Assembly (NCBI GenBank): GCA_002395805.1
Contig: DGVB01000018.1
Location: 28,492-92,491, forward strand
Reading direction: 5' to 3'
From: Bacteroidales bacterium UBA4295
GTDB lineage: Bacteria; Bacteroidota; Bacteroidia; Bacteroidales; Paludibacteraceae
DNA length: 64,000 bases
A program made the translations under genes and the position numbers. The notes below the pieces were generated by a model. The model was not told the DNA's origin. It searched no databases and saw nothing but the letters and a program-made list of their open reading frames with translations. This document shows, in pieces, positions 9,029 through 59,282 of the stretch; position 1 is the first letter of the stretch, and each line of letters opens with the position of its first letter.

Positions 9029-9814
9029 GTGCTCCTTAGGGAGATAATCAATAGCATAGAATCTGTAGCGCCACGGAGTGCCCAGGAGAAATGGGATAAC
9101 TCGGGAATGCAGGTAGGTGACACAGGACGGGATATCCAGTCTGTCCTCTTGACCACAGACGTAACGTCGGAGGTGGTCGGTGAAGCTATTGAGCACGGGT
9201 GCCAACTCATTATCTCCCATCATCCCCTATTGTTCCACCCCCTGAAGCAGGTATGCGGCCAGACGCCGCAAGCGCGCATCGTAGAGCAAGCTATCAAACA
9301 TGATATCGCTATCTATTCCGCCCATACTTCGCTCGATTCCGTATCCGGAGGCATCAACACCCGCCTCGCGGATATATTAGGCATCAAGGACTATCGGATT
9401 CTCGTTCCCTCATCGGAGGGAGGCGATACGGGACTCGGCGTAATAGGCCGGTTGGATGAACCGATGCCATTTGACTCCTTATTAAAACGCGTGCGCGAGC
9501 GCCTGAATACTACCTATATCCGCTATACAATTCACAATGCACAATTCACAATTGAGAAAGTGGCTCTATGCGGAGGCAGCGGTGCGGAGTTTATCGAAGA
9601 GGCGATCCGCCAGGGAGCAGACGCCTATCTCACAGCGGACTGCAAATACCATGATTTTCAGGCGGCAGAAGGACGCATCGCCCTTATCGATATCGACCAT
9701 TGGATCAGCGAGCGTCATGCGCGTGATATATTCCGCGATATCCTCGCTCCCCTCGGCGTCACATGCTTTATATCCCAAAAAGACAAAACACCGATATTAA
9801 TTGCAAATATATAA
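9029..9814 (+). CDS. Nif3-like dinuclear metal protein
   Basis: A 261-residue member of the Nif3/YqfO/YbgI family (once called GTP cyclohydrolase 1 type 2). Motifs seen are KWDNSGMQVGD, the metal-binding SHHPLLFHPLK, YSAHTSLDSVSGGINTRLAD, VALCGGSGAEF, ADAYLTADCKYHDFQ and the closing IDIDHWISERH. The start is GTG, placed by the family's LLREIINSIE opening. Members form toroidal hexamers with two metals; the cellular role is unsettled. A four-unit 7-nt repeat (ACAATTC) encodes IHNAQFTI just before the CGGSG loop, an unusual low-complexity patch in a conserved protein. The frame is intact. Confidence 0.85.
   Translation: MLLREIINSIESVAPRSAQEKWDNSGMQVGDTGRDIQSVLLTTDVTSEVVGEAIEHGCQLIISHHPLLFHPLKQVCGQTPQARIVEQAIKHDIAIYSAHTSLDSVSGGINTRLADILGIKDYRILVPSSEGGDTGLGVIGRLDEPMPFDSLLKRVRERLNTTYIRYTIHNAQFTIEKVALCGGSGAEFIEEAIRQGADAYLTADCKYHDFQAAEGRIALIDIDHWISERHARDIFRDILAPLGVTCFISQKDKTPILIANI
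9527..9554 (+). repeat. Heptanucleotide array inside the Nif3-like gene
   Basis: Four contiguous 7-nt units, ACAATTC, ACAATGC, ACAATTC and ACAATTG, 28 nt in all. They are in frame within coding sequence and encode HNAQFTI. Confidence 0.85.
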
Positions 9815-9840
9815 TTGATAATTTAAAAATTTATAATAAT

Positions 9841-10575
9841 ATGGCTAGAACGAAAGAATTGACCATCGAGGAGAAACTCAAAGTCCTCTATGAATTACAG
9901 CAGGTTGACTCCAAGATCGACGCTCTGCGTACCTTGGCCGGCGAACTGCCGCAGGAAGTGAAAGATATGGCCGACGAAGTAGAAGGTCTGAAGACCCGTC
10001 TGGTGAATATCGAGAATGATATCAAGGAATGCGAGACCCAGATCTCGGACCACCGTGTGCGTACCGAGAACGCCAACGCATCCATCTCCCGCTATCGCGA
10101 GCAGCAGAACACGGTTCGTAATAACCGCGAGTTTGACAATCTGAACAAGGAGATTGAGTACCAGGAACTGGAGATCGAGGCTTCGCAGCGTAAGATCAAG
10201 CATTACTCGGCTGAACTCGAGGCGCGTCAGGCAGAGAAAGCCAAGACCGTCAAGGATATCGAGGAGCGCACCGTGGATCTGAACCAAAAGCGCTCGGAAC
10301 TGGACCAGATCTTAGCCGAGACCAAGGCAGAGACCGAAGCGCTGGTGCTCAAAGCAAGCGAACTCGAGAAGAAAATCGACGAGCGACTGCTGACCGCTTT
10401 CAAGCGTATCCGTAAGAACGCCCGCAACGGCCTCGCTGTCGTTAAGATAGAGCGTGACTCCTGCGGCGGATGCCACGCTAAGATCCCTGCTCAGAGCCAG
10501 TTGGATATCCGTGCCCGCAAGAAGATTATTCCTTGCGAGTTCTGCGGACGTATCCTGGTAGATCCTGAGATGTAA
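9841..10575 (+). CDS. Coiled-coil protein with C-terminal C4 zinc ribbon
   Basis: A 244-residue protein. Residues about 15-190 are a long charged coiled coil rich in Glu, Lys, Arg and Leu. The C-terminal domain carries CGGCHAKIP and, 21 residues on, IPCEFCGRIL, the paired Cys motifs of the zf-RING_7/CdsZ-type zinc ribbon. The ATG at 9841 matches the start MARTKELTIEEKLKVLYELQ typical of the family; an upstream in-frame start would lie inside the preceding gene. It is probably co-transcribed with the Nif3-like gene 26 nt upstream. The two genes are neighbours in many bacteria. The function is not established. The 3' end overlaps the convergent CPBP gene by 50 nt. Confidence 0.8.
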   Translation: MARTKELTIEEKLKVLYELQQVDSKIDALRTLAGELPQEVKDMADEVEGLKTRLVNIENDIKECETQISDHRVRTENANASISRYREQQNTVRNNREFDNLNKEIEYQELEIEASQRKIKHYSAELEARQAEKAKTVKDIEERTVDLNQKRSELDQILAETKAETEALVLKASELEKKIDERLLTAFKRIRKNARNGLAVVKIERDSCGGCHAKIPAQSQLDIRARKKIIPCEFCGRILVDPEM

Positions 10576-11431: not shown

Positions 11432-11435
11432 GCTG

Positions 11436-11466
11436 CAAAAATACAACTATTTTGCGAGATACGCAA
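11436..11466 (-). promoter_or_regulatory. Promoter of the CPBP gene (near-leaderless)
   Basis: Minus strand TTGCGTATCTCGCAA (from 11466) and TATTTTTG (ending 11436), 23 nt apart. The ATG begins at 11431, so transcription should start at or within a few nt of it. Confidence 0.7.
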
Positions 11467-11493
11467 GAGTTCTGGCGAATTTTTGCTTTTTAT

Positions 11494-11563: not shown

Positions 11564-12682
11564 ATGGGATTACTTTTATTATTTTTGCTCGGTTCGATGG
11601 CCGTCAGTTTCTTATGCTCCGTACTGGAGTCGGTGCTGATGAGTACATCGCTCAGTTATATCAATTTGCGTGAAGAGGAGGGCTATGCGCCAGCGAAGCT
11701 GATGAGCAGTTACAAGGAGGACACCGGTCGTCCTTTAGCCGCTATTCTATCGTTAAACACCATTGCAAACACCATCGGTGCAGCCGGCGTGGGTATGCAG
11801 GCGACGGCTCTTTTCGGCTCCAAATGGTTCGGCCTGGTATCCGCGATCACGACGATACTGATTCTCTTTTTCGGCGAGATCATACCGAAGGTCATCGGTA
11901 CGACCTACTGGCGCGAGCTGATGGGTATCAGCGCGCGTATCATCCGTGCGCTGATATTCATCCTGTACCCGCTGGTATGGCTGGTGGAGTTGATCTCCCG
12001 CATGGTGCCGGATAACGAAGATGACCCGTCGGTGAGCCGCGAAGAAGTGCTGGCGATGGTGAACGTAGGCGAGGAAGAAGGCGTGGTGGACGAGGACGAG
12101 AACAAGATATTCTCGAACCTGATGCGGCTGGATTCGATTCATGCCTACGACGTGATGACGCCGCGCGTGGTAGCAAAGACCGCACCGGAGAACATGACCC
12201 TGCGGGCCTACTACGACAACGACGAATACGACCATTTCTCGCGTATTCCGCTGTACAAGCCCGAATCGCCGGAGTATATCACCGGCTATATCCTGCGCAA
12301 CGATGCGCTGGAGGACCTGACAGAAGACCATTTCCGCAAGACCTTGGGCAGTATCAAACGCCCCCTGCCGGCTTTCGACCAGGATCTGACATTAGGTACG
12401 ATATTCGACAGCATGCTGAAGCAGAAAAGCCAGATCGCGCAGGTGATCGACGAATACGGTATGTTCGTAGGCATCCTGACGCTGGAGGATATCATCGAGA
12501 CCATCTTCGGTCTGGAGATCATCGACGAGAACGACACGGTGATAGACATGCAGCAGTACGCCCGCGAGCGATGGGAGCAGAGGCAGAAGAAGTACAGGAA
12601 AGTAGAAAGTCAAAAGTCGAAAGTCGAAAGCAATGAGGAAGCAGAGCGAGATACGGATACTGAACAAGAAGGCGAAGTTTGA
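11564..12682 (+). CDS. CNNM/CBS-domain membrane protein (HlyC/CorC type)
   Basis: A 372-residue protein. Residues 1-150 carry hydrophobic helices of a CNNM (DUF21) domain, including [13 protein letters not shown] and [14 protein letters not shown]. An acidic linker ([21 protein letters not shown]) and two CBS domains follow ([13 protein letters not shown] with HFSRIPLY, then [22 protein letters not shown]). Relatives act in Mg/Co transport or, as GldE, in gliding. The ATG at 11564 begins the first membrane helix, and longer starts would cross the promoter. The C-terminus is odd: after the CBS domain it runs through a GTCGAAA-type repeat ([14 protein letters not shown]) and 50 nt into smpB. 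Confidence 0.8.
12602..12629 (+). repeat. Heptanucleotide array at the CNNM gene/smpB overlap
   Basis: Units GTAGAAA, GTCAAAA, GTCGAAA and GTCGAAA end three nt before the smpB start codon. They are in frame with the upstream gene and encode [10 protein letters not shown]. Confidence 0.85.
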
Positions 12683-13154: not shown

Positions 13155-14690
13155 ATGAGTAAAGCATTATTAATGATTTTGGACGGCTGGGGCATCGGCA
13201 ACAAGAGTAAAGCCGATGTGATCAGCTGCACGCCGACACCGCACTGGGATGCGTTGTTAGCACAATACCCTCATTCACAGCTCCAGGCAAGCGGCGAGAA
13301 CGTCGGTTTGCCGGACGGACAGATGGGTAACTCGGAGGTCGGACACCTCAATATAGGTGCTGGCCGCGTGGTATATCAGGACCTGGTGAAGATCAACCGC
13401 TCCATCCGCGACAACTCGATCATGCAGAACCCCGAGATCATCGCTGCTTACAAGGCAGCGCAGGCGGAGGGCAAGAAACTGCATATCATGGGTCTATGCT
13501 CCAACGGCGGCGTACACAGTTCGCTCGACCACCTATTCAAACTGGTGGAGATAGCGAAAGAATACGGCGTAGGGGAGAAGACTTTCGTGCATTGCTTCAT
13601 GGACGGCCGCGACACCGACCCGCGCAGCGGAAAAGGATTCATCGCCGACCTGCAGCAGGTATGCGACGCCAACGGCGCCCATATCGCCTCTATCATCGGT
13701 CGTTTCTACGCCATGGACCGCGACAAGAGATGGGAGCGCATCAAAGTGGCATATGACCAGTTGGTGAACGGTATCGGTCGCCAGGAGACCGATATGGTAG
13801 CCGCCGTACAGGGATGCTACGACCGCCATACGGAGGAGCACAAGGACACGGACGAGTTCATGGAGCCGCTGGTGAACGCCGGCTGCGACGGACGTATCGC
13901 CGAAGGCGATGTGGTCATCTTCTTCAACTACCGCAACGATCGCGCGAAAGAGATCACGATCGTGCTGACCCAGCAAGACATGCCGGAGCAAGGCATGCAT
14001 ACCATCCCCGGATTACACTACTGCTGCATGACGCCGTACGACAGTTCATTCCAGGGGCTGCATATCCTCTATCCGAAAGAGAACGTAGAGAATACCTTCG
14101 GCGAAGTGGTTAGCAATTTAGGTCTGAAGCAATTACGTATCGCCGAGACGGAGAAATTCGCCCATGTGACGTTCTTCTTCAACGGCGGCCGCGAAGCGGA
14201 GTATCCGGGTGAGGAGCGTATATTGATCCCGAGTCCGAAGGTACCGACCTACGACATGAAGCCGGAGATGAGTGCACCGGAGGTGACGGAAGCGCTGATA
14301 GCGGCTATCAAGACGCAGAAATTTGACTACATCACTCTCAATTTCGCAAACGGTGACATGGTAGGTCATACGGGTGTGTATGAAGCTATCGAGAAAGCCG
14401 TGAGGACGATAGACGACTGCTCCCACCGCGTGATCGAGGCTGCGCTGGAGAACGGCTATGAGATCATCGTGATAGCCGACCACGGCAACTGCGACAACGC
14501 CATCAATCCGGACGGCACCCCAAACACCGCACACTCGCTCAACCCCGTTCCGTTCGTATATATCAGTAAGGAACACACGGACGCGCGCGTAGAGAACGGT
14601 ATCCTCGCCGACGTAGCTCCGTCGCTATGCCATATCATGGGTATCGCGCAGCCGAAGGAGATGACGGGAAAAAATCTAATTAAGGATTAG
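13155..14690 (+). CDS. gpmI: 2,3-bisphosphoglycerate-independent phosphoglycerate mutase
   Basis: A 511-residue cofactor-independent mutase that interconverts 3- and 2-phosphoglycerate with two Mn ions. It opens [12 protein letters not shown] with the first metal Asp. The catalytic serine lies in [15 protein letters not shown] (Ser60). Later metal-site motifs are [30 protein letters not shown] and [10 protein letters not shown]. Length is typical. The stop codon TAG is part of the first unit of a 16-unit 7-nt tandem array that runs to 14797, and a hairpin terminator follows at 14826. It starts 57 nt after smpB. Confidence 0.97.
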
Positions 14691-14797
14691 AGGTTAGAGG
14701 TTAGAGGTTAGAAGTTAGAAGTTAGAAGTTAGAAGTTAGAAGTTAGAAGTTAGAAGTTAGAAGTTAGAAGTTAGAAGTTAGAAGTTAGAAGTTAGAA
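14686..14797 (+). repeat. Sixteen-unit heptanucleotide array after gpmI
   Basis: One ATTAGAG, two GTTAGAG and thirteen GTTAGAA units run without interruption from 14686 to 14797. The gpmI stop codon is in the first unit. This is the longest array of its kind in the window and is almost perfect in its last thirteen units. Confidence 0.95.
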
Positions 14798-14825
14798 GAA
14801 AGAAAAAGAAAAAAGAAAAAAGAAA

Positions 14826-16514: not shown

Positions 16515-17566
16515 TGCAAAACACAGAAGACATAGAAACCGAGGAGTTGTGGGAGAGATGGCGATGCGAGGTAGATAAGGGTCAAGGCAAAGAGCGGATT
16601 GACAAATACCTGGCGGAGCATATGACCAACACCAGCCGCAACCGCATCCAGAATGCGGCTGATGCGGGTAATGTATGGGTGAACGGTCAGCCGGTGGCTT
16701 CCAATTATAAGGTTAAGCCGGGCGATATCATCCAGGTGCTGCTGGACCACGAGCCGCATGATTTCACCATCACGCCGGAGAATATCCCGCTGGATATCGT
16801 CTATGAAGACGAGGACCTGATGGTAATCAACAAACCGGCAGGACTGGTGGTTCACCCCGGCCACGGCAACTATGAGCATACACTGCTGCATGCGTTAGCA
16901 TGGCATTTTGAGCAATGTTCAATTCACAATTCACAATTCACAATTGACATCAATGATCCCAATATCGGGTTGGTGCACCGGATAGACAAAGATACCTCGG
17001 GTCTGCTGCTGATTGCCAAGACGCCGGAGGCGAAGACGAACCTGGCCAAACAATTTTTCGACCACACGACCGAGCGCGCCTACAACGCCTTGGTCTGGGG
17101 TACCTTCCCGGAAGAGAGCGGCACGATAGAAGGCGCACTGGCGCGGGACAACAGAGACCGGACGATATACAGGGTATGGGATCCGGAAGAATGTCCTCAG
17201 GCCAAAGAAGCGGTCACCCATTGGAGGGTTTTGGAACGGTTTTTGTACGTGACTCTGGTGGAGTGCCGCCTCGAGACCGGTCGCACCCATCAAATACGCG
17301 TGCATATGAAGCATATCGGTCATCCGCTGTTTAGCGATGAGAAGTATGGCGGCTGCGAGATTCTCAAAGGTCTTCGCACCCAGAAATACCGCCAGTTTGT
17401 CGAGAATTGCTTTGCGCTTTGTCCGCGGCAGGTGCTGCACGCCAAAACACTCGGATTCACGCATCCGCGAACCGGCGAACGGATGCTTTTCGACAGCGAA
17501 TGGCCGGAAGATATGACGAACCTGATAAATAAATGGAGAAACTATGAACCAAATACTATGGGTTGA
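16505..17566 (+). CDS. RluA-family 23S rRNA pseudouridine synthase (RluD-like)
   Basis: A 353-residue enzyme. The N-terminal S4 RNA-binding domain (RIDKYLAEHMTNTSRNRIQN, VKPGDIIQV) is followed by the catalytic domain with HRIDKDTSGLLLIAKT, whose Asp is the catalytic residue, and with RLETGRTHQIRVHMKHIGHP. It makes pseudouridine in rRNA. Order and length fit RluD. A four-unit AATTCAC array encodes CSIHNSQFTID just before the catalytic motif. The gene overlaps its upstream neighbour by 10 nt and porX by 23 nt. Confidence 0.9.
   Translation: MVLMQNTEDIETEELWERWRCEVDKGQGKERIDKYLAEHMTNTSRNRIQNAADAGNVWVNGQPVASNYKVKPGDIIQVLLDHEPHDFTITPENIPLDIVYEDEDLMVINKPAGLVVHPGHGNYEHTLLHALAWHFEQCSIHNSQFTIDINDPNIGLVHRIDKDTSGLLLIAKTPEAKTNLAKQFFDHTTERAYNALVWGTFPEESGTIEGALARDNRDRTIYRVWDPEECPQAKEAVTHWRVLERFLYVTLVECRLETGRTHQIRVHMKHIGHPLFSDEKYGGCEILKGLRTQKYRQFVENCFALCPRQVLHAKTLGFTHPRTGERMLFDSEWPEDMTNLINKWRNYEPNTMG
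16921..16948 (+). repeat. Heptanucleotide array inside the RluA-family gene
   Basis: Three AATTCAC units plus AATTGAC, 28 nt, in frame within the catalytic domain region just before the HRIDKDTSG motif. Confidence 0.85.
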
Positions 17567-19139
17567 CGATGAGATAGACCTGCTGCAACCGTATATCATC
17601 TATCTCAAGGACAAAGGATACGAGGTACTGACAGCAAGCAACGGAGAAGACGCGATAGAAGCCATCAGCCGTCAGAGATCAGATGTCAGCATTGTTTTTC
17701 TGGACGAAAACATGCCGGGTATGTCCGGTCTGGAGACGCTGCAGGAAATCAAACGACTGCGGCCGGAGGTGCCGGTGGTGATGATCACCAAGAGCGAGGA
17801 AGAGCATATCATGGAGCAGGCTATCGGCGGCAAGATAGCCGATTATCTGATCAAGCCTGTCAACCCCAGTCAGATATTGCTTTGCCTCAAAAAACATATC
17901 CATCAGCATGCGATTGTAAGCGAGCAGGTGCAACAGAATTACCGCCAGGAATGGAGCGATATCACCTACCTCATCGACACGGCTTCGACCATCGAAGAAT
18001 GGCAGGCTATCGAGCGGATGCTGACCAAATGGGATATTGAGTTATCCGAGGTAGAGGCCGAACAAGCCGGCCGCTCCGGCATGCACAGTCTGATTGAAGA
18101 CCAGCGAACGCAAGCCAATGCAGCTTTCGCCAAATGGATTAGCAAGAACTACGAATCGATAGTCGAAAGTAGAAAATCGAAAGTCGAAAGCGGAAAGTCG
18201 AAAGTCGAAAGCATGATCATGTCGCCGGACGTGATGAAGCATGCTGTTTTTCCGCTGCTGGACAAAGGGGAGAAGGTGCTGCTATGCGTGATTGATAATT
18301 TCCGCTACGACCAATGGAAAATCATCCAGCCTCTCATCAGCGAATTCTACTCCATCCGGACGGAAGAGCAATATACCTCTATCCTGCCTACCGCTACCCA
18401 GTATGCCCGCAATGCTATTTTCTCGGGTTTGCTTCCCCTTCAGATACAGGAGATGTATCCGCAATACTGGGTGGAAGAGGGCGACGAGGAGAGCAAGAAC
18501 CAATACGAGAAAGAGTTGGTACAGACCTTGCTGGACCGCTATCGCAGGAGAGAGACGTTCAACTACTGGAAGGTAAACGAGAGCGATTTTTGCGAACGGG
18601 TGATTCACCAACTCAAGGGCGTACAGGCGCCCCTCAATATCGTGGTGCTCAATTTCATCGACATGCTGTCGCATTCGCGTACGGAGAGTAAGATCATGCG
18701 CGAATTGGCCAACGACGAGTCGGCCTACCGGAGTCTGACCCTCAGTTGGTTCCGCCATTCACCGACCCATGAACTGCTCCGCCGTGCAGCGGAATTAGGC
18801 TTTACGCTCGTGCTGACCACCGACCATGGTACGACCCGGGTGAAGAACGCCGTACAGATAGTGGCCGACAAGAATACCAATACCAATATCCGTTACAAGG
18901 TAGGCAAGGCGCTTAACTGCGGATCCAAGAACGTGATGGCCATCGAGCAGCCGAAACGCGTAGGACTACCCTGCCCGAACGTAAGCAGCAGTTATATGTT
19001 CTGCACCGGCAGCGATTTCTTCGCCTACCCGAACCAGTTCAATTATTACGCCCAGTATTTCCGCAATACCTTCCAGCACGGCGGCATATCGCTGGAGGAG
19101 ATGATTATTCCGCTGGTGACGCTGGAGCCAAAAAGGTAA
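17544..19139 (+). CDS. porX: PorX-type response regulator with PglZ domain
   Basis: A 531-residue two-component regulator. The receiver domain (1-120) has acidic residues Asp8/Asp9, phospho-acceptor Asp54 in FLDENMPGMSG, Thr82 and Lys104. A helical linker follows, then an alkaline-phosphatase-like PglZ domain with LCVIDNFRYDQW, LPTATQYARNAIFSG and TTDHGTTRV. This layout is that of PorX, which with PorY controls type IX secretion and acts on nucleotide substrates. Two 7-nt arrays lie in the gene: a four-unit one in the receiver domain (17664) and a seven-unit one at the linker/PglZ junction (18162). Both keep the frame. It overlaps the synthase gene by 23 nt. Confidence 0.88.
   Translation: MNQILWVDDEIDLLQPYIIYLKDKGYEVLTASNGEDAIEAISRQRSDVSIVFLDENMPGMSGLETLQEIKRLRPEVPVVMITKSEEEHIMEQAIGGKIADYLIKPVNPSQILLCLKKHIHQHAIVSEQVQQNYRQEWSDITYLIDTASTIEEWQAIERMLTKWDIELSEVEAEQAGRSGMHSLIEDQRTQANAAFAKWISKNYESIVESRKSKVESGKSKVESMIMSPDVMKHAVFPLLDKGEKVLLCVIDNFRYDQWKIIQPLISEFYSIRTEEQYTSILPTATQYARNAIFSGLLPLQIQEMYPQYWVEEGDEESKNQYEKELVQTLLDRYRRRETFNYWKVNESDFCERVIHQLKGVQAPLNIVVLNFIDMLSHSRTESKIMRELANDESAYRSLTLSWFRHSPTHELLRRAAELGFTLVLTTDHGTTRVKNAVQIVADKNTNTNIRYKVGKALNCGSKNVMAIEQPKRVGLPCPNVSSSYMFCTGSDFFAYPNQFNYYAQYFRNTFQHGGISLEEMIIPLVTLEPKR
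17664..17691 (+). repeat. Heptanucleotide array in the porX receiver domain
   Basis: ATCAGCC, GTCAGAG, ATCAGAT and GTCAGCA, four degenerate units that encode ISRQRSDVS before the phospho-acceptor strand. Confidence 0.7.
18162..18210 (+). repeat. Seven-unit heptanucleotide array in porX
   Basis: GTCGAAA, GTAGAAA, ATCGAAA, GTCGAAA, GCGGAAA, GTCGAAA, GTCGAAA. The 49 nt encode [17 protein letters not shown] in the interdomain linker. Confidence 0.9.
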
Positions 19140-21871: not shown

Positions 21872-23041
21872 ATGCCAAGCAATTTTATCGACTATGTCAA
21901 GATCTACTGCCGCTCCGGAAAGGGCGGCGCAGGGTGTATGCACCTTCATCGCGCCAAATATCTGCCGAAAGGCGGTCCTGACGGCGGCGACGGCGGCAAA
22001 GGCGGGTCGGTAATATTGCAAGGCAACCGCAATCTATGGACGCTCCTGCACCTCAAGTACCAAAAGCACATCATGGCTACAGACGGAGGCAAGGGAGGTC
22101 AGAGCCGCTCGTTCGGCAAAGACGGTGAAGACAAGATCATCGAGGTACCATGCGGTACGGTGGTCTATGACGGCGAGACGGGTGAGTATATATGTGAGGT
22201 GAAGGAGCATGGCGAGCGCGTGGTGCTGCTCAAAGGCGGTCGCGGCGGTTTGGGCAACTGGCATTTCCGTACGGCTACCAACCAGGCTCCGCGGTATGCC
22301 CAGCCGGGAGAGCCGGCGCAGGAGCGCACCGTGATCATGCAACTCAAGGTATTGGCGGACGTAGGTCTGGTAGGATTCCCCAATGCCGGTAAATCAACTC
22401 TACTGAGTGTCGTTTCAGCCGCCAAGCCGGAGATAGCGGATTATCCTTTCACGACGCTCACGCCCCAATTAGGTATCGTCTCTTACCGGGACGGAAGGTC
22501 GTTCTGCATGGCCGACATCCCCGGTATCATCGAGGGTGCCAGCGAGGGCAAAGGTCTGGGGCTGCGATTTCTGAGACATATCGAGCGGAACGCGGTGCTT
22601 CTATTTATGGTTCCCGCTACCAGCGAAAACATCGTGGCGGAATACAAGATCCTGCTAAGCGAACTGGAGAAATACAACCCGGAGTTACTGACCAAAGCAC
22701 GGATTCTGGCTATCTCCAAATGCGACGCAGTAACCGAGAAGGAGCTGGACAAAATCAAGAAATCCAAAGCGCTGAAGAATCTGGATATTGCTGTTGTATT
22801 CATTTCATCCGTTGCCGGTCAAGGTATCGATGAACTTAAAGATGCGCTGTGGGTGGAACTGAACAAAGAGCAGAACCAGATCATCGAGATCAGTCACGCA
22901 CCGATAGATGTGACAGTGGTGGAGCCTTCAGAGGTCAGCCAACAGCCATCAGACGACGAAGAAGAGCATACCATTTACCTGAACGAAGTAGAGGAAGAGT
23001 GGGATCTCGACAAATACAAAGGCATTGGATGGGATGAATAG
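21872..23041 (+). CDS. obgE: GTPase ObgE/CgtA
   Basis: A 389-residue GTPase. The Gly-rich Obg fold (1-158, with [15 protein letters not shown] and [10 protein letters not shown]) precedes the G domain with GFPNAGKST (168-176), the switch TTLTPQLG, and [12 protein letters not shown]. It binds the 50S subunit and takes part in ribosome assembly and stress control. The acidic C-terminal extension includes a CAGCC-type 7-nt array ([11 protein letters not shown]). The last 8 nt overlap the ClC gene. Confidence 0.95.
22927..22954 (+). repeat. Degenerate heptanucleotide array in obgE
   Basis: TTCAGAG, GTCAGCC, AACAGCC and ATCAGAC, read in frame as part of the variable C-terminal tail. Confidence 0.65.
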
Positions 23042-24898: not shown

Positions 24899-27406
24899 AT
24901 GAAGCGACTACTACTCATATTCATTAGCATCCTATGCGCTGTTTTGGTCTTGGCGCAACGGGCAAACAGCTACACCATCAGCGGCTATGTGAGCGATGCG
25001 GCGAGCGGCGAGCGGTTAATCGGCGCTGCTGTCTATGACACGGTGTCCCGTCAAGGCACTGTGACCAATACGGCAGGATTCTATACGCTGACAATAGTAG
25101 AAAATAGAAAGAACCAGGTAGGGCCGCTCAAAGTCGAAAGACCAGAAGTGGTATTGGTGGCATCTTATGTGGGATATGAGCCATCGGAAGTCAGCCTTCA
25201 GCCATCAGAAGTCAGCGGTCAGACGGTAAATTTTGCTTTGCAGCTTGCCACACGGTTACAGGAAGTGACAGTGACGGGGCATCAGTCTGTTTCCGCGCCG
25301 GATAATGTACAGATGAGCGCCATCGAAGTGCCGGTGACGCAGATACAGGCTATTCCTGCCATCGGCGGCGAAGTGGATGTGCTGAAAGCGATCCAGTTGC
25401 TGCCGGGCGTGCAGAGCGGCGGCGAAGGCAGTGCCGGTATCTATGTCCGCGGCGGCGGACCGGATGAGAACCTGGTGATGCTGGACGGCGCACCGCTATA
25501 CAATATCAACCATGCCCTCGGTATGTTCTCCGTCTTCAATGCCGATGCCATCAAAAACGTGACACTCTACAAGGGCAATTTCCCTGCACGCTTCGGTTCC
25601 AGACTCAGTTCCGTGATAGACGTATGGCAGAAAGAAGGCAACAACACGTTCTGGCACGGCGGCATCTCGGTGGGACTCATTGCCAGCAAGATCAATCTGG
25701 AAGGTCCCATCTTCAGCAAAGCGCAGTTGGACAGTCTGAAAGCCGGCTATTCGCCTCGCGCCAAGACGACCTTCAATATCTCCGCCCGCAGGACGTACTT
25801 CGATCTTTTCACCGCACCCCTGATTGCCGCCATGACTTCGGGCGACGGCATGTCGCTATGGGCGGGGTACTATTTCTACGATATCAATGCCAAACTGAGC
25901 CATACCTTCTCCGAGAAAGACCGCCTGAGTATCGGTATCTACAGCGGTTCGGACGTGGAGTACATGCGGATGAGTGAGAAAGACACATATGGCGGGAGCA
26001 CGAGTGAATTCGGGATGTCAATGCGCTACGGCTGGGGCAACACGCTTGCCGCGATAGACTGGCAACACCAGATCAACCATCAGCTTTTCCTCAACACCCG
26101 CGTTCATTACAGCGGCTACCGCAGCAAACTGAGCCAATCGATGAGCGAGAAAAAGACCGGAGAAGAAAATACCAGTTTTGAGCAACAGATGGGTTTTAAC
26201 AGCCAGATCAACGATGTGTCCGTTTCCTCCCAACTGGAATTCACGCCGAACCAAAAGCACAAGGTGCAGGCAGGACTGGAATATATCTACCATCATTTCC
26301 AGCCCTCCGTCCAGAACACGATGATTCTCTCTATGGGCGATTCAGCAGCAGCGGCATTCAATATGGACACCACGATCGGCAACAAGGCATTGCACGGACA
26401 CGAAGTGGCGGCTTATATCGAAGACACATGGAGTCCTATCCGTTGGTTCAGGCTGAACTACGGCGCACGGTTCAGTATGTACGGTATCCGCGGCAAGGTG
26501 TATCCTTCGGTCGAGCCGCGGGTAGGAATGCGTTTTCTGGTGCATAAAGATGTAGCGATCAAGGCCAGTTATTCGTACATGAGCCAGTATGTGCATCTGC
26601 TGAGCAACAGTTCGCTCTCGCTGCCGAGCGATATGTGGGTACCCGTGACACATGACCTGCCTCCGATGCGATCCATGCAAGTGGCAGCGGGTATCAGTTA
26701 TGACGTGCTCGGGCAAGTGGAATTGAGCGTGGAAGGCTATTACAAACGCTCGCTGAACCTGATCGAATACAAAGAAGGAGCATCGTATATGGGCTACACG
26801 GCTGACTGGGAATCCAAAGTGACGACCGGAACGGGCTGGAGTTATGGTGTAGAGTTTCTGGCGCAGCGTAAGATAGGGCCTGTGACAGGATGGATAGGTT
26901 ATACCTGGAGCCGCACGATGCGCCAGTTTGACGAGATCAACTACGGCAAACCTTTCCATGCCAAATACGACCGCGAGCACGACCTGAGTATCACGCTTCA
27001 GTACCAGATCACCCCGCGCATCGACATCGCCGGCACTTGGGTTTATGCCACCGGCAACAGAGGAACACTTGTGTCGCAGGTTTATATAGATCCGTGGATC
27101 GGCACCGTCGAGTATTTCAGCGAGCGAAACGGATACCAACTGCCGGACTACCACCGTCTGGATCTGGCAGCTAATTTTCATTTCCCGCACAAACGGTCCG
27201 AGAAAGGCAAGAAAGGGAAGGCGGACGGCTACTATGGCAAAGGCGGCTGGCTGCGGCATGCCGAGCATATTCTGAATATCAGCTGCTACAACGTCTATTG
27301 CCATATGAACCCTATGTTCGTCGAAGCCGATCCCTACTCCGGCAAACTATACCAGATCACCCTATTCCCGATATTGCCGAGCATCAGTTATCATTTCAAG
27401 TTTTAG
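24899..27406 (+). CDS. TonB-dependent outer membrane receptor
   Basis: An 835-residue protein. It has a signal peptide (RLLLIFISILCAVLVLAQ) and an N-terminal carboxypeptidase-regulatory-like domain (YTISGYVSDAASGERLIGA, ending near residue 120). A plug domain follows (LPGVQSGGEGSAGIYVRGGGPDENLVMLDGAPLYN cut into the usual boxes), then a beta-barrel with many aromatic-ended strands and a C-terminal HFKF. The ATG at 24899 opens the signal. It imports a substrate that cannot be named and is followed by a DUF4249 lipoprotein, its usual partner. A degenerate CAGCC-type 7-nt array encodes PSEVSLQPSEVSGQ at the end of the first domain. Confidence 0.9.
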   Translation: MKRLLLIFISILCAVLVLAQRANSYTISGYVSDAASGERLIGAAVYDTVSRQGTVTNTAGFYTLTIVENRKNQVGPLKVERPEVVLVASYVGYEPSEVSLQPSEVSGQTVNFALQLATRLQEVTVTGHQSVSAPDNVQMSAIEVPVTQIQAIPAIGGEVDVLKAIQLLPGVQSGGEGSAGIYVRGGGPDENLVMLDGAPLYNINHALGMFSVFNADAIKNVTLYKGNFPARFGSRLSSVIDVWQKEGNNTFWHGGISVGLIASKINLEGPIFSKAQLDSLKAGYSPRAKTTFNISARRTYFDLFTAPLIAAMTSGDGMSLWAGYYFYDINAKLSHTFSEKDRLSIGIYSGSDVEYMRMSEKDTYGGSTSEFGMSMRYGWGNTLAAIDWQHQINHQLFLNTRVHYSGYRSKLSQSMSEKKTGEENTSFEQQMGFNSQINDVSVSSQLEFTPNQKHKVQAGLEYIYHHFQPSVQNTMILSMGDSAAAAFNMDTTIGNKALHGHEVAAYIEDTWSPIRWFRLNYGARFSMYGIRGKVYPSVEPRVGMRFLVHKDVAIKASYSYMSQYVHLLSNSSLSLPSDMWVPVTHDLPPMRSMQVAAGISYDVLGQVELSVEGYYKRSLNLIEYKEGASYMGYTADWESKVTTGTGWSYGVEFLAQRKIGPVTGWIGYTWSRTMRQFDEINYGKPFHAKYDREHDLSITLQYQITPRIDIAGTWVYATGNRGTLVSQVYIDPWIGTVEYFSERNGYQLPDYHRLDLAANFHFPHKRSEKGKKGKADGYYGKGGWLRHAEHILNISCYNVYCHMNPMFVEADPYSGKLYQITLFPILPSISYHFKF
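25183..25224 (+). repeat. Six-unit degenerate heptanucleotide array in the TonB receptor gene
   Basis: ATCGGAA, GTCAGCC, TTCAGCC, ATCAGAA, GTCAGCG and GTCAGAC, in frame between the N-terminal domain and the plug. Confidence 0.7.
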
Positions 27407-29954: not shown

Positions 29955-29983
29955 GTACAATTAGACAAAGTACAATGTACAAA
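29955..29983 (+). repeat. GTACAAA-type heptanucleotide array between the sugar transferase and Sua5-type genes
   Basis: GTACAAT, an 8-nt spacer TAGACAAA, GTACAAT and GTACAAA. It is intergenic and begins nine nt from the sugar transferase start codon. Confidence 0.65.
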
Positions 29984-29992
29984 GGGAAGTTA

Positions 29993-30628
29993 TTATCGGA
30001 TGATTTTAAACGTATTGTCTGTGTTTACTTTGATGATGGAAGACGGTTCGTGGGGTGTTTCGTCTTCTCTTCTAAAACGGCAGACATAGTCTGCTCCCTG
30101 CAGGATTGCTTCCTCTATCTCGTGAAAGAAATGCGCCGTAGGATGTCCGCTGATATTCGCGGAGGTAGAGACAATCGGCCGTTTCAGTTGAGCACAAAGG
30201 GCTTTACTGAAGGGTTCGCTCGTAATTCGAATGCCGATAGATCCATCTTCGGCAATCAGATTTTTCGCCAGATGGCGTGCATTGGGATAGATGATCGTCA
30301 TCGGCTTTTCATCTTGTAAATCGGTCTGTGCTCCGTATTCTATAGAATTTTGAATTTTGAATTTTGAATTTTGAATTTCCAAGAGCATCTCCGCGGTCTC
30401 CGGCACATCTACATAGTAATCCAATTTCGCCGCCGAATCGAGGAGTACGAGCATGGATTTGCTATCTTCGCGCTGCTTGAGAGCGTATATCTTAGCCACC
30501 GCCGCTTCGTTCGTCGCGTCACAACCTATACCCCACACTGTGTCCGTCGGATAGACAATGATGCCTCCTTCGCGAAGCACCCGCAGTGCTTCCTGCAAAT
30601 CCTCTCTGTCGTACCTGCCAAAATCCAT
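29993..30628 (-). CDS. Sua5/YciO/YrdC-family threonylcarbamoyl-AMP synthase
   Basis: A 211-residue protein with YrdC motifs: [51 protein letters not shown] and [14 protein letters not shown]. It makes threonylcarbamoyl-AMP from Thr, bicarbonate and ATP for the t6A37 modification of ANN-decoding tRNAs. The ATG at 30628 is preferred because an upstream start would precede the likely transcription start. A five-unit GAATTTT array, read as [16 protein letters not shown], is inserted in the middle of the fold. This region is normally a short loop, so the insert may be tolerated. Confidence 0.85.
30345..30379 (-). repeat. Heptanucleotide array inside the Sua5-type gene
   Basis: Four GAATTTT units and a fifth ending in C (plus-strand sense), 35 nt. 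On the coding strand it is AAAATTC and encodes [10 protein letters not shown]. Confidence 0.9.
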
Positions 30629-32739: not shown

Positions 32740-32740
32740 C

Positions 32741-40359: not shown

Positions 40360-43300
40360 ATGCAAAACAAAGGACTTGTTAGATTCATGGCGGTGTGCCT
40401 TGCATTGGTATGCGCCTTTTATCTGTCGTTCTCTTTGGTAACGAGTCATTATGACAAGAAGGCCAAAGAGTACGCGGCAGGTGACGATGTAAAAGAGTAC
40501 CAGTATTTGGACTCTATTGCAGCTAAGAAAGTTTGGTTTGGCTACACGCTCAAGGAGTGCCGTGAGAAAGAGATCAATCTTGGTCTTGACCTCAAGGGCG
40601 GTATGAACGTGACCATGGAGGTATCTGTACCGGACATCCTCGACGCATTGAGCGGCCACAACGAGACTCCGAATTACAAAGAGGCTCTGGCTCGTGCGAA
40701 ACAGAAACAAAAATCCAGCGGTGCTGATTTCGTAACGCTTTTCATCGAGTCGTATAACGAAGTAGACCCGAATGGTCAGTTGGCATCTATTTTCTCTACA
40801 TTTGAGCTCAAAGACAAAGTGACGCTCAATTCGACCAACGCAGAGGTGGAGAAAGTGATCCGCGAGGAGGTTGACGGTGCTATCAACAACTCGTTCAACG
40901 TACTCCGTACCCGTATTGACCGTTTCGGTGTTGTTCAGCCGAACATCCAGAAGCTGTCCCAGCCGGGCCGTATCCTGATTGAGCTGCCGGGTATTAAAGA
41001 GCCGGAGCGTGTACGTAAACTGCTTCAGGGTTCTGCTAACCTGGAGTTCTGGGAGACCTATGAGGCATCCGAGTTACTGCCGATGCTGGCTCAGATTAAC
41101 CGTGAGTTCGCGGCATCTGAAGTACAAAGTGACGAAGTACAAAGTACAAAGGAAGAGGCTCCGAAAGCAGAAGAAGCTCCGAAAGCTGAGAGCGATGAAC
41201 TCGCAGAATTGTTAGGAGATTCCGCTGCCGCTGCAGAGGCTGACCAAGCTGCTCAAATCGCTGAGTACAAGAAAAACAACCCGCTCTTCGCAATCCTCAA
41301 TCCGTCTGTTAATCAGGCAGGACAGGCATATCGCGGACCGGTGGTAGGTACTGTTCACTACGTAGATACCGCTAAGGTCAATGCCATGCTGAACTCGCAG
41401 ATTGCAAAAGCTATTCTGCCGCGCGACGCACGTTTCTATTGGACGGTTAAGGCTATTGACGAGGCAGGTAGTTATTTCAACCTCGTAGCTTTGAAAGCGC
41501 AGCGTGACGGCCGTGCTTCTCTCGAAGGCGATGTCATCACCGACGCACGCGCGGATTTCTCGCAACTGAGCGCATATGCAAACGTATCTATGTCGATGAA
41601 CGCTGAGGGCGCTAAGACATGGCAGCGTTTGACCAAAGACAATATCGGCAAATCCGTAGCTATCGTCCTCGACGGATACGTTTATTCGTTCCCGACCGTA
41701 CAGAGCGAGATTGCCGGCGGTAACAGCCAGATCACCGGTAACTTCACCGTAGAAGAGGCAAAAGACTTGGCTAACACCCTCAAATCCGGTAAGATGCCGG
41801 CTCCTGCCCGCATCATCGAGGAGAGCGTGGTTGGTCCGTCCCTCGGTCGTGAGGCTATCCAGTCCGGTCTCTGGTCCTTCGTGCTCGGCTTCGTACTGAT
41901 CCTCATCTACATGATCTTCTACTATGGCTGGATTCCGGGTCTCATCGCCGATGCCGCGTTGTTGTGCAACGTGTTCCTGCTGCTCGGTATCCTTGCTTCC
42001 TTCTCCGCAGTGCTCACACTGCCGGGTATCGCCGGTATCGTCCTGACAATGGGTACCGCCGTGGATGCCAACGTGCTGATCTACGAGCGTATCCGTGAGG
42101 AGTTGCGCGCAGGTAAAGGCATGAGAAAAGCTATTGAAGATGGTTTCAAAGGTGCCATTAGCGCCATCGTCGATGCGAACGTAACTTCGTTCCTCACCGG
42201 TGCCATCTTGGCTATCTTCGGTACCGGTCCTATCAAGGGCTTCGCCGTTACCTATATGATCGGTATTATCTCCTCGTTCCTCACCGCTGTGTTCATCACG
42301 CGTCTCTTGCTCGAGGATTACGCTAAGAATGAGAACGCTAAGGAACTGAGCTTCACCACCAAACTGATGAAGAACTTCCTCCAGAACGTACATTTCGATT
42401 TCGTCAATGCACGCAAGTGGGCTTACTGCCTGTCGGGCGCATTGGTTATCTTCGCTATTCTGGGTCTGGAGCCGCATATCTTCGGTAAACTGAACCTCGG
42501 TATTGACTTCTCCGGAGGACGTAACTATGTTGTCCGTTTCGACCAGAATATCAACACCCAGGATGTACGCGAGAGCCTTGATAAGACTTTCAGCGCTACG
42601 CTGGAGGACGGCGAGCTCTTCTCGCTCAATGTGATTACCTACGGTAACGACGCTAACCAGGTTCGTATCTCTACCAACTATCGTATCCACGAGGAGACCG
42701 CTGAGGCTGACGAGGCTATCGAGGCACTGCTCTACGAGGGATGCAAGCCGTTCCTGGGCGAGGATATAACCTTCAATGATTTCCGTTCGACCGAGTCCAA
42801 CGCAGCTGTAGGTATCATGCAGAGCCAGAAAGTAGGTCCGGCTATCGCCGATGATATCACCACCAGCGCTATCTGGGCTGTCCTCGCTGCGCTTATTGTG
42901 ATCTTCCTCTATATCCTCTTGCGCTTCCGTAACTTCGCATACTCGGTAGGTGCCCTGACAGCTCTTGCGCACGATACCGTTATCGTGCTCGGTCTGTACG
43001 CTATCCTCTGGAAGGTCATGCCTTTCTCCATGGAGATTGACCAGGCATTTATCGCTGCTATCCTGACCGTCATCGGTTATTCGATCAACGATACCGTGGT
43101 TATCTTCGACCGTGTACGCGAGTACAACAAACTCTATCCGAAACGCGAGAAGAAGGTCAATATCAACGACGCTTTGAATAATACGCTCAGCCGTACCTTC
43201 TCAACCTCTATGAGTACATTCGTTGTCCTCCTCGCTATCTTTATCTTCGGTGGCGAGACCATCCAGGGCTTCGTATTCGCACTCTTGGTAGGTGTGATTG

Positions 43301-55007: not shown

Positions 55008-55056
55008 ATTTGTGATTTGTGATTTGTGATTTGTAATTTGTAGTTTGTGATTTATG
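55008..55056 (-). repeat. Seven-unit heptanucleotide array between plsC and the HIT gene
   Basis: ATTTGTG three times, ATTTGTA twice, GTTTGTG and ATTTATG (plus-strand sense). The plsC stop codon lies in the last unit and the array ends seven nt before the HIT ATG. Confidence 0.9.
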
Positions 55057-55798
55057 ATGGATGATTCATTCCTTCTATAACGGCATTTCGTACTGCCTCG
55101 ATGGCGGCATTGGCATCGGGGTTTCCGTCTGCATCCCGGAATTGTTTCAGGTCTATCGGTTCGCCGATATACATACTGGTCGGCACGCGATGAACAAAGG
55201 GTTTGCCTTTGGGCAGCACGTCGAAACAACCGGTGAGCGAGAGGGGGATAACCGGCAGGCCAAGGTCCAGCGCAATCTGGAATGCTCCCCTTTTGAATCG
55301 TCCCACTTCGCCGTTAAGGGTACGTGTTCCCTCCGGGAAGATGACGGTGCAGACGCCACCTACGAGTTGTTTCTCCACCTCCTTGAGGCTCTCCAGCGCC
55401 GCTTTGGCGTTGCGGCGGTCGATGAAGATATGTCCGGCGGCCTTGCACCCCGTGCCGACGAAGGGCACCTTGCGGAGCTCCGCTTTCATCAGCCATTTGA
55501 AGATCACCGGCAGCCATCCGTAGATGAGCCATACGTCGAACATCGACTGATGGTTGGAGACGAAGACATAACTCTGACCGGGTTGTATATGCTCTTGCCC
55601 CTTAACGCTCACAGGCAGAAACATCAGCCAGAAGAACGAGCGGGACCAGAACTGCTGCACTTTGTGCACAAACTCCGCATTGCGCCAGTGGACGGTGCAG
55701 ACAGTGAAGACAGCGGTAAAAACAGTAAGACCGCATAGTATCGGCCATGCGATCAGATACTGGTACAGAATGTAGAACGGTGTTATAATATATTTCAT
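55052..55798 (-). CDS. plsC: 1-acyl-glycerol-3-phosphate acyltransferase
   Basis: A 248-residue membrane enzyme. N-terminal helices (LIAWPILCGLTVFTAVF), block I SNHQSMFDVW (His83 and Asp88 of HX4D), GHIFIDRRNAKAALESL, block III FPEGTRTLNGEVGRFKRGAF and GLPVIPLSLTG. It acylates lysophosphatidic acid in phospholipid synthesis. Its stop codon is part of a 7-nt array. Confidence 0.92.
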   Translation of the reverse strand: MKYIITPFYILYQYLIAWPILCGLTVFTAVFTVCTVHWRNAEFVHKVQQFWSRSFFWLMFLPVSVKGQEHIQPGQSYVFVSNHQSMFDVWLIYGWLPVIFKWLMKAELRKVPFVGTGCKAAGHIFIDRRNAKAALESLKEVEKQLVGGVCTVIFPEGTRTLNGEVGRFKRGAFQIALDLGLPVIPLSLTGCFDVLPKGKPFVHRVPTSMYIGEPIDLKQFRDADGNPDANAAIEAVRNAVIEGMNHPS

Positions 55799-57198: not shown

Positions 57199-57207
57199 GC
57201 ATATGCC
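57180..57207 (-). terminator. Terminator of the two-gene surface protein operon
   Basis: Minus strand GGCATATGC, TT, GCATATGTC and then ATTTTTTT. The right arm doubles as a -33 element, as at 32432. Confidence 0.7.
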
Positions 57208-57236
57208 ATTCTTTTTTATGAAAAATCGTTTTTCTG

Positions 57237-59282
57237 CTACTTAATTCGTTTGCCGGCTACATCAAATGTGCCTTCCGAAGTAACAAACAATAGTTGGCCG
57301 TCTTGAAGCACTTTATACCTTCCCGAAACCTCGCTTACATTTCCCAGACCGGTAGGTATTCCCTGAATATTTGGATTGCCGGGAATAATAGGCGGAGTCG
57401 GAATCACTTCATTACCATCATACTGCAAGTCGCCTGTATAACCCGTCGTCGCAAAATCGCCTATATAGACATGCAGCGGAATATTGTTCTCGTCCAAAAC
57501 GGACAGCACATACGTATAGCGCGAAGCGGCATCCAAACCCGTCACCTTGAAAGAAAGGGTGTAAGGCTGAGAATCATTTACCATTTGTTCATTTACCATT
57601 TTCGCATTTTTTCGTTCCGGCGCGGAGAAATGGATAGCCAGCAACTGACCTCTGCTGCCTAATGTCAACTTACAGAAGACCACGCTGTCTTTATAGATAT
57701 CGATCTGATAACTGTGCGCCGCGCTATCTGTCGGCCAGGTGAAATCCGCCGTCGTTTCGCCCGGATCTACGGTAACCGTCTTTTGGATCATAGCGGAGTC
57801 GGGTGTGTCATTCATGCGGAAACGTCCCCAATACGGATGTTCGCGGTAAAGTTTACGGCTATCAGGTAGCACACTCAATAAAGCACTGTCCGGAATGTCC
57901 GCCAATGTCCCTTTGCTTACAGCCGGAGGAGTAGCTGCCCAGACGGAAATATGTGTTATCGCGCTGTCCCCTTTGAAGGCATTGTCCCCTATCAAAACGA
58001 CGTTTTTACCGATACTCAACTCCTTGAGACCGCTCCAGTTCTCAAAAGCGTTCGTGCCGATCGAAATCACCTTGTCGGGAATAACGAGGCTGTCCTGCAA
58101 CTTAATCCCCGAAAAAGCACTGCCGCCGATCATCGTCAAAGCCTCAGGAAGTACGATGGAATCGAGGGAACTGCAGCCTGAGAAGGCATTGTCGCCTATT
58201 GTCGTTGCACCCTTAGGAAGATGAACGCGCGCCAAAGAAGTACACCCGGCAAAACACGAAGAACTGACAGCTGTCATGCCATCCGGAAGAACAATCCGCG
58301 TAATCTTGCTGCAGTTCTGGAAAGCTTGCTGGTGAATGGCTGTCAGGCTTGAGGGCAGGACTACCGTGTCCAGTATGCTGTTTCCCATGAAAGCACCTTG
58401 ACCTATCCACTGCACGCCTTCGGGCAGCACCACCTTCTTCATTCTTGACCATTGGCATAAATGGGTCGGAACAAACTCCACATCCGGACCGAAGATAAAA
58501 TCCCCGTTCCAATAGCAGTAAAGATTATAGAACACAGACGAAGAAGCCGGCGGGTTCTTGGCGTTCCAGACAATAACAGGGCTGCTATGGATGCACCACG
58601 AAATCTGCTTGGAGGAACGGAACGTAGCAGGGAAGAACAACGTATCTTGCAGTGGAATAGTGGCTACGCTGTTCATGTCGTACACGGCACGGTTGGGTTC
58701 TCCGTCAAAGATACTGCCGTCGATCTCCTCCAGACAGTCCGACCACCGGACGGATTTCAGCCCGTAGCAGTTCTCGAATGCCATCTGGCCGATGTATTTG
58801 ACCCCTTTCCCCAAGTCGCATTTCACCATCGTTGTGCAATTGGCAAAGGCAAACTGTCCCACGGTATCTACCGAGTTGGGCAGTCTGATCTCTTTCAGCT
58901 TATAACATTTCTCAAACATGTACGCCGGTATCTTCGTCACGCCTTCCGGTATCTCGCATGCCGTCAGGTTCCACCAGTCGCGGAAAGTGGCGCCGCTGAA
59001 CCCCGTCAACCCTTCCGGCAACGAAATCGTCTTGCAGGAGTTGTACGGATAGTACGTCTTGTAATCCGTCGCCCATGACGAGGCCTGAAGCACCTGTTTG
59101 TTCCACCAGAGACTATCGACTGTGTTCTTCAACTCGCCGTACCCCTCAATGGTCATGTGCGCCGTCTCCGTGTCATAGCTCCACGTCAGATGCTCCCCGC
59201 ACACGCCCTCATACACGGTTGCACGGCTCATTCCGGCTATAAACACCAGACATACAATCAATAATAAGTACTGCCTTTTCAT
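57237..59282 (-). CDS. Secreted BspA-type leucine-rich repeat protein
   Basis: A 681-residue secreted protein. It has a signal peptide (YLLLIVCLVFIAGMSRA), an N-terminal ACGEHLTWSYD-like opening typical of BspA (here CGEHLTWSYDTETAHMTIEG), and many LRR_5 repeats over residues 80-440 (FANCTTMVKCDLGKGVKYIG, AFSGCSSLDSIVLPEALTMI). A fibronectin-like segment follows (ATADFTWPTDSAAHSYQIDI in part), then a C-terminal GRYKVLQDGQLLFVTSEG tail. That tail recurs in the next protein upstream and recalls a type IX sorting tail. It probably binds host or community partners. A CATTTAC-type array encodes MVNEQMVND. Confidence 0.8.
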   Translation of the reverse strand: MKRQYLLLIVCLVFIAGMSRATVYEGVCGEHLTWSYDTETAHMTIEGYGELKNTVDSLWWNKQVLQASSWATDYKTYYPYNSCKTISLPEGLTGFSGATFRDWWNLTACEIPEGVTKIPAYMFEKCYKLKEIRLPNSVDTVGQFAFANCTTMVKCDLGKGVKYIGQMAFENCYGLKSVRWSDCLEEIDGSIFDGEPNRAVYDMNSVATIPLQDTLFFPATFRSSKQISWCIHSSPVIVWNAKNPPASSSVFYNLYCYWNGDFIFGPDVEFVPTHLCQWSRMKKVVLPEGVQWIGQGAFMGNSILDTVVLPSSLTAIHQQAFQNCSKITRIVLPDGMTAVSSSCFAGCTSLARVHLPKGATTIGDNAFSGCSSLDSIVLPEALTMIGGSAFSGIKLQDSLVIPDKVISIGTNAFENWSGLKELSIGKNVVLIGDNAFKGDSAITHISVWAATPPAVSKGTLADIPDSALLSVLPDSRKLYREHPYWGRFRMNDTPDSAMIQKTVTVDPGETTADFTWPTDSAAHSYQIDIYKDSVVFCKLTLGSRGQLLAIHFSAPERKNAKMVNEQMVNDSQPYTLSFKVTGLDAASRYTYVLSVLDENNIPLHVYIGDFATTGYTGDLQYDGNEVIPTPPIIPGNPNIQGIPTGLGNVSEVSGRYKVLQDGQLLFVTSEGTFDVAGKRIK
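57575..57603 (-). repeat. CATTTAC-type heptanucleotide array in the LRR gene
   Basis: CATTTAC, an 8-nt CATTTGTT, CATTTAC and CATTTTC. In frame; encodes KMVNEQMVN. Confidence 0.6.

Follow-up and report, generated by a model that had tools for sequence, protein, structure and literature searches.

The stretch of DNA analysed here (the window) comprises 64,000 nucleotides of Bacteroidales bacterium UBA4295, a member of the Paludibacteraceae (contig DGVB01000018.1, positions 28,492 to 92,491), and the subject is a class of short tandem arrays with a 7-nt unit that lie between its genes and in frame inside conserved ones. These arrays look like fast-turning-over, self-expanding DNA. The source genome is a 1.50-Mb assembly in 40 contigs, 61% complete, and its named relatives are uncultured ruminant-gut Paludibacteraceae or Bacteroidales. 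An earlier note, made from the sequence alone, had reported more than a dozen such arrays between 9527 and about 57603; Tandem Repeats Finder (score 30) assigns period 7 to 14 of the 46 tandem-repeat rows in the window, in line with that report, and the range ends are correct, as are the sites given at 14686, 29955 and 55008.

Arrays in and between genes

Pfam names the NIF3, RluA-type, PorX, ObgE, TonB-receptor, BspA-type and CNNM/CBS hosts; SecDF, the smpB-like gene and phosphoenolpyruvate (PEP) carboxykinase were named from sequence. All arrays are on the plus strand unless stated. An ACAATTC array of 3.9 units (9527..9553) lies in frame in a NIF3-family gene (open reading frame, ORF, 9029-9814) and encodes TIHNAQFTIEK, an AATTCAC array of 4.3 units (16920..16949) lies in frame in a loop of an RluA-type pseudouridine synthase (ORF 16505-17566), and a GTCGAAA-family array of eight units (18154..18213) lies in frame in PorX (ORF 17544-19139), between the receiver and PglZ domains. 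TCAGNNN units form a degenerate array near the C-terminus of ObgE (22922..22954; ORF 21872-23041), which falls below the period-7 detector, and a further array in frame in a TonB-dependent receptor (25179..25222; ORF 24851-27406). A GTACAAA array (41119..41151) lies in frame in SecDF (ORF 40360-43398), where it encodes EVQSDEVQSTKE, and a CATTTAC-type array (57575..57609, minus strand) lies in a gene of the BspA-type leucine-rich repeat family (57237-59282, minus strand). Both of the latter mix 7- and 8-nt steps, which accounts for their 15-nt periods, and the description of the 7-nt period as strict fails for GTACAAA-type arrays. Pfam agrees with the earlier placing of arrays in NIF3, RluA-type, PorX, Obg GTPase and TonB plug genes, and adds the BspA-type gene; in the Sua5-type gene also named, no array was met, and no search was aimed at one.

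Other arrays sit at the edges of genes. A GTCGAAA/GTAGAAA/GTCAAAA array (12598..12630) forms part of the C-terminus of a CNNM/CBS gene (ORF 11342-12682) and stops two bases short of the start codon of the next, smpB-like ORF (12633). Among seven readable orthologs of this site, GTCGAAA/GTTGAAA-type arrays occur in L044 and L051, and GTACCAA/GTGACAA-type arrays in L039 and L040 (L-labels denote compared loci and G-labels compared genomes, one genome per species). Sixteen units of GTTAGAG/GTTAGAA with an A-rich tail (14679..14825) follow a gpmI-like ORF (13155-14690), whose TAG stop codon comes from the first unit (at 14687); L040 has GGACTAA at this site. A GTACAAA/GTACAAT mixture (29955..29990) lies after a sugar transferase gene (28675-29946, minus strand) and extends into a doubtful ORF (29975-30319), and a perfect GAATTTT array of 4.9 units (30345..30378) lies at the 5′ end of the PEP carboxykinase ORF (30371-32407), the true start of which is probably further in. 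An ATTTGTG array (55008..55065) lies between the minus-strand genes 54569-55000 and 55052-55798 and reaches the stop codon of the second. ORF 59323-62883 (minus strand) has two GTACA traces close to its C-terminus (59345..59417, minus strand; CGTACAT and TTGTACA), for which the Tandem Repeats Finder rows, at 59345 and 59403, hold only two units each.

Period 7, clade and dialects

The lack of an excess of period 7 over other periods had been set beforehand as the refuting outcome for the class; the excess was found, and the claim survived. Exact runs of at least 12 matches number seven at period 7 in the window (three within one array); no other period from 1 to 30 has more than two (range 0-2), and 20 order-2 Markov copies of the window gave 0.0 such runs at period 7. 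In a larger sample of the same genome (422 kb, the window plus 18 stretches), exact runs of at least 10 matches number 60 at period 7, seven at period 6 and six at period 8, with 0.0 at period 7 under an order-3 Markov model of the sample (mean of three). More distant named relatives (loci L079-L118) show little excess, with counts of 22 for period 7, 17 for period 8 and 15 for period 9.

Array load across genomes was measured at score 11 in samples of 80-614 kb per genome. Rich genomes hold 12.5 to 22.5 period-7 arrays per 100 kb (G000 17.1, G356 13.4, G357 19.4, G035 18.8, G030 18.8, G032 22.5, G027 12.5), and poor genomes 0 to 3.8 (G007 3.8, G029 0, G016 2.5, G017 2.5, G028 0 and, from another family, G051 1.2). 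These loads place the class chiefly in a single clade of uncultured ruminant-gut Paludibacteraceae. In a porX tree with 41 rows, arrays in the RluA loop occur only inside one supported clade of 19 rows, in seven of its 11 RluA-readable rows, and the trait requires a minimum of five changes when unreadable rows are scored as lacking it. A load of 12 or more per 100 kb around porX, read in most cases from 13.5 kb per locus, is found in nine of the 19 rows within the clade and four of the 22 outside it.

Unrelated loci share a few unit types, as had been claimed, and individual families burst in single species. Overlapping windows of two words were counted in the same 23 genomes. TCAGCCN windows number 268 in G357, 104 in G356, 44 in G018, 37 in G035, three in G015 and zero in three genomes, with backward controls of 0-1 per strand, and GTCGAAA windows number 98 in G358, 89 in G022, 84 in G015, 71 in G359, 20 in G000, 16 in G356 and five in G357. 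Related species can thus have opposite dialects, such as G357 (268 TCAGCCN, 5 GTCGAAA) and G015 (3 and 84). For GTCGAAA the backward control gives counts as high as 8 (G356) and 15 (G357); the probable cause is that reversed GTCGAAA is the TCAG-family word CTGAAAG. Across the phylum, a GTCGAAA triple was found in 14 of 296 genomes, namely that of the window, 12 of the 17 sampled genomes of genus g31, and G239, for which the control count is 86. Genus g31, in which GTCGAAA arrays recur, belongs to another order of the same class.

Unit structure and turnover of the arrays

The sister species G357 and G356, sampled at 612 and 614 kb and 91% identical across the porX locus, allow the arrays to be compared in detail. 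When G357 arrays of the TCAG family picked by period alone (64 arrays, 203 adjacent pairs) are compared unit by unit, mismatch is.03,.04,.06 and.03 at T, C, A and G, and.38,.53 and.51 at the next three positions. Re-anchoring on eight other 4-mers leaves the low and high columns where they are, and under simulated uniform mutation the value is no higher than.20, vs.29 for the TCAG arrays. Three TCAGNNN units followed by TCAG occur in 303 windows of G357 and in none of the backward control. The triplet is skewed, with C (.74) or A (.19) first, C (.50) second, and G (.46) or A (.32) third, and its spectrum is similar in 57 arrays inside ORFs and 10 others. Adjacent triplets are identical in 25 of 161 pairs, close to the 17.5 expected from shuffling the pool (25 is reached in 20 of 500 shuffles) and below the 31.7 expected from shuffling within arrays (25 is reached in 497 of 500). 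Given the fixed TCAG with near-pool triplets, random duplication was rejected as the whole story for this family.

Nine ungapped orthologous TCAG pieces differ between the two species at 13 of 132 TCAG positions, 15 of 72 triplet positions and 140 of 2034 flanking positions. One of the nine has no array in G356, and subtracting it by hand, from the array counts only, leaves eight pieces with differences at 5 of 116 TCAG positions and 11 of 63 triplet positions. Of the six changed triplets in these TCAG pieces, four are multi-base, vs 10 of 127 in the flanks (Fisher p = 0.001), which is thin evidence but points to whole-unit replacement. The TCAG site in ObgE is common to the window and L040 and missing from L039, and some TCAG arrays are therefore old; this weakened an early reading in which TCAG arrays are born heterogeneous. 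Block copying between arrays was also considered and was set aside, as TCAG arrays show no significant excess of shared three-unit strings.

TCAGNNN arrays also occur in environmental viral contigs (IMG/VR, loci L197-L276), with other triplets (GGG, TTA, CGG), and adjacent triplets there are identical in 134 of 297 pairs (80 loci of at least 120 stretches). The backward control in IMG/VR also yields matches, their number likewise a lower bound, and some control loci are query loci, so that the control is not clean and the matches show occurrence only.

The other families tested in G000 behave as slippage arrays: identical adjacent units there far exceed the pool expectation for AATT (20 of 50 vs 3.7), GAAA (9 of 15 vs 3.9) and ACAA (9 of 24 vs 2.7). 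TGAAA is intermediate in G357 (32 of 65 vs 21) and near the pool in G356 (13 of 32 vs 10.2), where GAAA-type arrays are weakly above it (13 of 40 vs 9.5).

The reading frame constrains which arrays are found in genes. A 7-nt unit repeated over 21 nt encodes the same cyclic peptide whichever its phase, and therefore only units free of stop codons on the sense strand can persist in genes. Open frames of at least 150 amino acids contain 57 of the 67 TCAG arrays in the G357 sample, 57 in sense orientation and none in antisense, and among in-frame arrays of all families, summed over four samples, the unit is open on the sense strand only in 158 and on the antisense strand only in 20. Such frames span 90-94% of the four samples. 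In G357, which has 145 arrays in 0.61 Mb, they span 92% of the sample and hold 109 of the 145 period-7 arrays (75%), so that arrays in genes are rarer than chance.

The same site can carry different arrays in different relatives. The RluA loop is readable in 52 loci, some of which represent one genome twice; an array was detected in 10, and 37 have a segment of 35-44 nt without one. The families at this loop are AATTCAC (window), AATTAAA, CAATCAT, ACAATGC, TCAGCAT, TCAGCCR and GGACAAA, together with two families of 15-nt period seen by eye (L010 and L017), and three loci that the porX tree places close together, those of the window, L039 and L040, have three different ones. The PorX loop, among the loci listed, carries GTCGAAA, TCAGCCR or GTACAAA/GGGACAA in some and nothing in most.

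Orthologous sites were found for 41 of 137 G357 arrays and 28 of 90 G356 arrays, the two directions sharing sites. The same family occupied both sides in 13 and 12 comparisons; of these 25, 19 were unchanged in length and six differed by 7 or 14 nt. These whole-unit changes support slippage inside an array. Among the remaining 44 comparisons, the orthologous site held a different family in eight (from G357) and nine (from G356) and no array in 20 and seven. Net length change was less than half the array length in 20 of the 44 (4 of 8 and 2 of 9 with a different family, 11 of 20 and 3 of 7 with none), where the array substitutes for other text and is not simply added, and it was a multiple of 3 in 32. 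Differences of 28 nt (four units) and 21 nt (three units), down to about one unit, occur at L176:13067 and L168:12282.

With a looser detector, same family, different family and no array were found at 20, 9 and 23 of 52 sites, and in the reverse direction at 20, 11 and 11 of 42, vs arrays at only 4 of 392 and 5 of 323 random sites. Conservation at most of the random sites called for a fairer control, which was built from indel-bearing sites. Across 147 kb of alignment, 174 such sites include 38 with an array in G357 and 35 with one in G356; 15 have both, six of the same family and nine of different families. These nine swaps compare with 5.5 expected by independence (p = 0.12), so permissive sites largely explain them. 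Family swaps at one site are real and are mostly accounted for by indel-prone sites; array-only sockets, which the contrast between 9 of 52 sites and 4 of 392 random ones had suggested as a separate phenomenon, were dropped. Target-site duplications were not seen by eye in the aligned pairs examined, and no formal scan was run.

Origin of the arrays

The reading preferred here, with a probability of about 0.5 for the model as a whole, is that the arrays are dispersed, degenerate heptanucleotide satellites that grow by slippage while units of a dominant family spread and mix, with no host function needed. Arrays would be frequently born and lost at weakly constrained sites (intergenic stretches, linkers and surface loops), which would merely tolerate them, and the arrays would lengthen as a nascent strand slips by one unit. 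Another process would spread and mix the units of the locally dominant family, so that each genome would drift towards its own dialect; its likeliest form is template switching, or gene conversion, from one dispersed array to another, with the short fixed TCAG core as primer. That a family spreads through a genome is the observed outcome, for which short-homology template switching or conversion is the mechanism that we infer.

Several observations weigh against this reading. The evidence here leaves the step size of 7 without explanation, and period 11 is also elevated (8.8 arrays per 100 kb in G027, 7.8 in G357, 6.2 in G007). The AATT arrays of three genomes resemble products of plain slippage, as do the GAAA and ACAA arrays of G000, so that unit mixing is demonstrated for the TCAG family only. 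Within that family, the multi-base triplet test is based on six changed triplets, shared three-unit strings between arrays number 9 vs 5.3 expected (reached in 60 of 500 shuffles), and some of the triplet diversity may reflect age. On the tree, nine changes are needed for the porX-locus load trait, and the border of the clade is therefore not sharp.

Slippage by itself, in which random 7-mers duplicate at permissive sites, polymerase geometry favours 7 nt and point mutation brings decay, is possible but unlikely. It fits the six length changes of 7 or 14 nt and the homogeneity of AATT, GAAA and ACAA arrays in G000, but gives no account of dialects and does not produce a fixed TCAG beside near-random triplets. 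The earlier claim that the arrays are not random slippage thus holds for TCAG, with its heterogeneous units, and does not hold where the family is conserved between sister species, since length changes there are whole units. A different view of the TCAG arrays, that they are written and not duplicated, each unit joining a 4-nt anchor to three bases taken from a skewed distribution (C/A, then C/T/A, then G/A/T), anchor and distribution both being particular to the species, inside conserved genes as well, with TAACTGA of Beggiatoaceae and cyanobacteria as one dialect, is improbable. Selection could also maintain TCAG every 7 nt as sites read by a DNA- or RNA-binding protein while the triplets drift. 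The lower divergence of TCAG in the eight orthologous pieces and the likeness of triplet spectra inside and outside ORFs agree with this; the placement of 57 of 67 arrays inside ORFs, the multi-base triplet changes (4 of 6) and the fall of TCAGCCN windows from 268 to 0 among 23 genomes speak against it and make it distinctly improbable.

Import of arrays of other families by allele exchange between rumen species would suit the unrelated families at one site in sister species and the GTCGAAA arrays of g31, but it merely shifts the origin elsewhere and is very unlikely. Least probable is that a dedicated enzyme, either a reverse transcriptase of the telomerase type or a RAYT-like HUH transposase, writes or moves the units. 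The reverse transcriptase DRT10 does produce 9-nt tandem repeats through realignment on short homology, as described in PMC12632851, and Y1_Tnp matches, mostly weak, occur in six of seven rich genomes, the one intermediate genome and none of five poor ones. However, the RVT_1 reverse transcriptase was found in only five of 24 genomes, some of them incomplete, and was not found in the array-rich, 97% complete G035. A family-specific model (E <= 0.001) matches RAYT-like HUH proteins in 33 of 50 genomes, with up to eight matches per genome in the genus and scores near or below the Pfam Y1_Tnp cut-off. These proteins of 330-440 amino acids have a long C-terminal extension and MPDHxH and Tyr...Asn-Pro motifs (examples are G032:C63:508-1608, G356:C62:2571-3626 and G030:C6:76551-77540; loci L471-L476). 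Their matches do not follow array load in the deciding genomes, each sampled at 15-21 kb: G008 has seven matches and no array in 20 kb, G024 six and none in 15 kb, and G021 (63% complete) no match and yet five arrays in 21 kb. Loss of MutS was likewise discarded as a driver, since MutS_V is found in 24 of 24 genomes, with two matches in 22 and one in the window genome, which is incomplete, and in G032. None of these three gene types tracks the arrays.

The satellite reading keeps the self-expanding half of the earlier proposal that this is a mobile or self-expanding class. For the mobile half, no target-site duplication was seen by eye in the aligned pairs, the suggested co-variation with a transposase gene was not borne out for the RAYT-like protein, and family swaps do not significantly exceed the indel-bearing control.

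Some features of the window and its relatives stand apart from the class. The GC-rich GCGAGCG repeat in the TonB-receptor ORF (24993..25015, plus strand) is of doubtful membership and may be unrelated, and tandem repeats of periods 16 and 11 (48404-48459, 48007-48050 and 1393-1435) lie outside it. Sister species also differ by insertions of 232 nt upstream of smpB in L040 and 324 nt after gpmI in L039, which share text such as AATTTTAAGAACA, found again downstream of a PASTA-like gene; these are possibly a separate dispersed intergenic element. G+C drops to 0.39 at 32001-36000, vs about 0.5 in most of the window, and this segment is possibly acquired.

Relation to known heptamer repeats

Short tandemly repeated repetitive (STRR) sequences of the cyanobacteria Calothrix and Nostoc are dispersed heptanucleotide repeats in a few degenerate families. 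The arrays described here resemble these and other heptanucleotide simple sequence repeats in a 7-nt unit above chance and neighbouring periods, dispersal, a few degenerate families and whole-unit length changes. They differ in lying mostly in ORFs, conserved genes included, where the known repeats are mainly intergenic, and in having at least eight families, related species showing opposite dialects. According to MacGregor 2015 (PMC4679880), TAACTGA direct repeats, also reported in five Bacteroidetes, consist of a single exact unit that in most cases closely precedes a start codon. On the reverse strand this unit reads TCAGTTA, that is TCAG plus TTA, with identical core and step, but the triplet varies here (CCG, CCA, AAG, CTA and others), TTA making up 3 of 186 in-ORF triplets, and 57 of 67 TCAG arrays lie inside ORFs and not upstream of them. 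In Rehm 2015 (PMC4692102), GGGAATC/GGGGAYT heptamer arrays of Xanthomonas and Nostoc are dispersed and vary in length and sequence between close relatives, as the arrays here do, and Calothrix heptamers are mentioned; those repeats are G-rich and quadruplex-forming, and the families here are not G-rich. DRT10 forms its tandem repeats from one RNA template, and they are described as cDNA (PMC12632851), whereas no reverse transcriptase was found in 19 of the 24 genomes searched here. Searches of open-licence PMC papers showed no description of these families from Bacteroidales, nor of units in which four bases are fixed and three vary.

What these arrays add is that related species have opposite dialects, that the TCAG unit has four fixed and three variable bases, and that arrays are abundant inside conserved genes. 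Heptamer repeats of bacteria have long been noted and, to our knowledge, their mechanism is not settled; the high density of these arrays, together with their opposite dialects and their grammar, makes the origin of such repeats testable. Within these genomes the arrays accompany much of the local insertion and deletion change, housekeeping proteins included, occurring at 58 of the 174 indel-bearing sites between G357 and G356 in the aligned samples.

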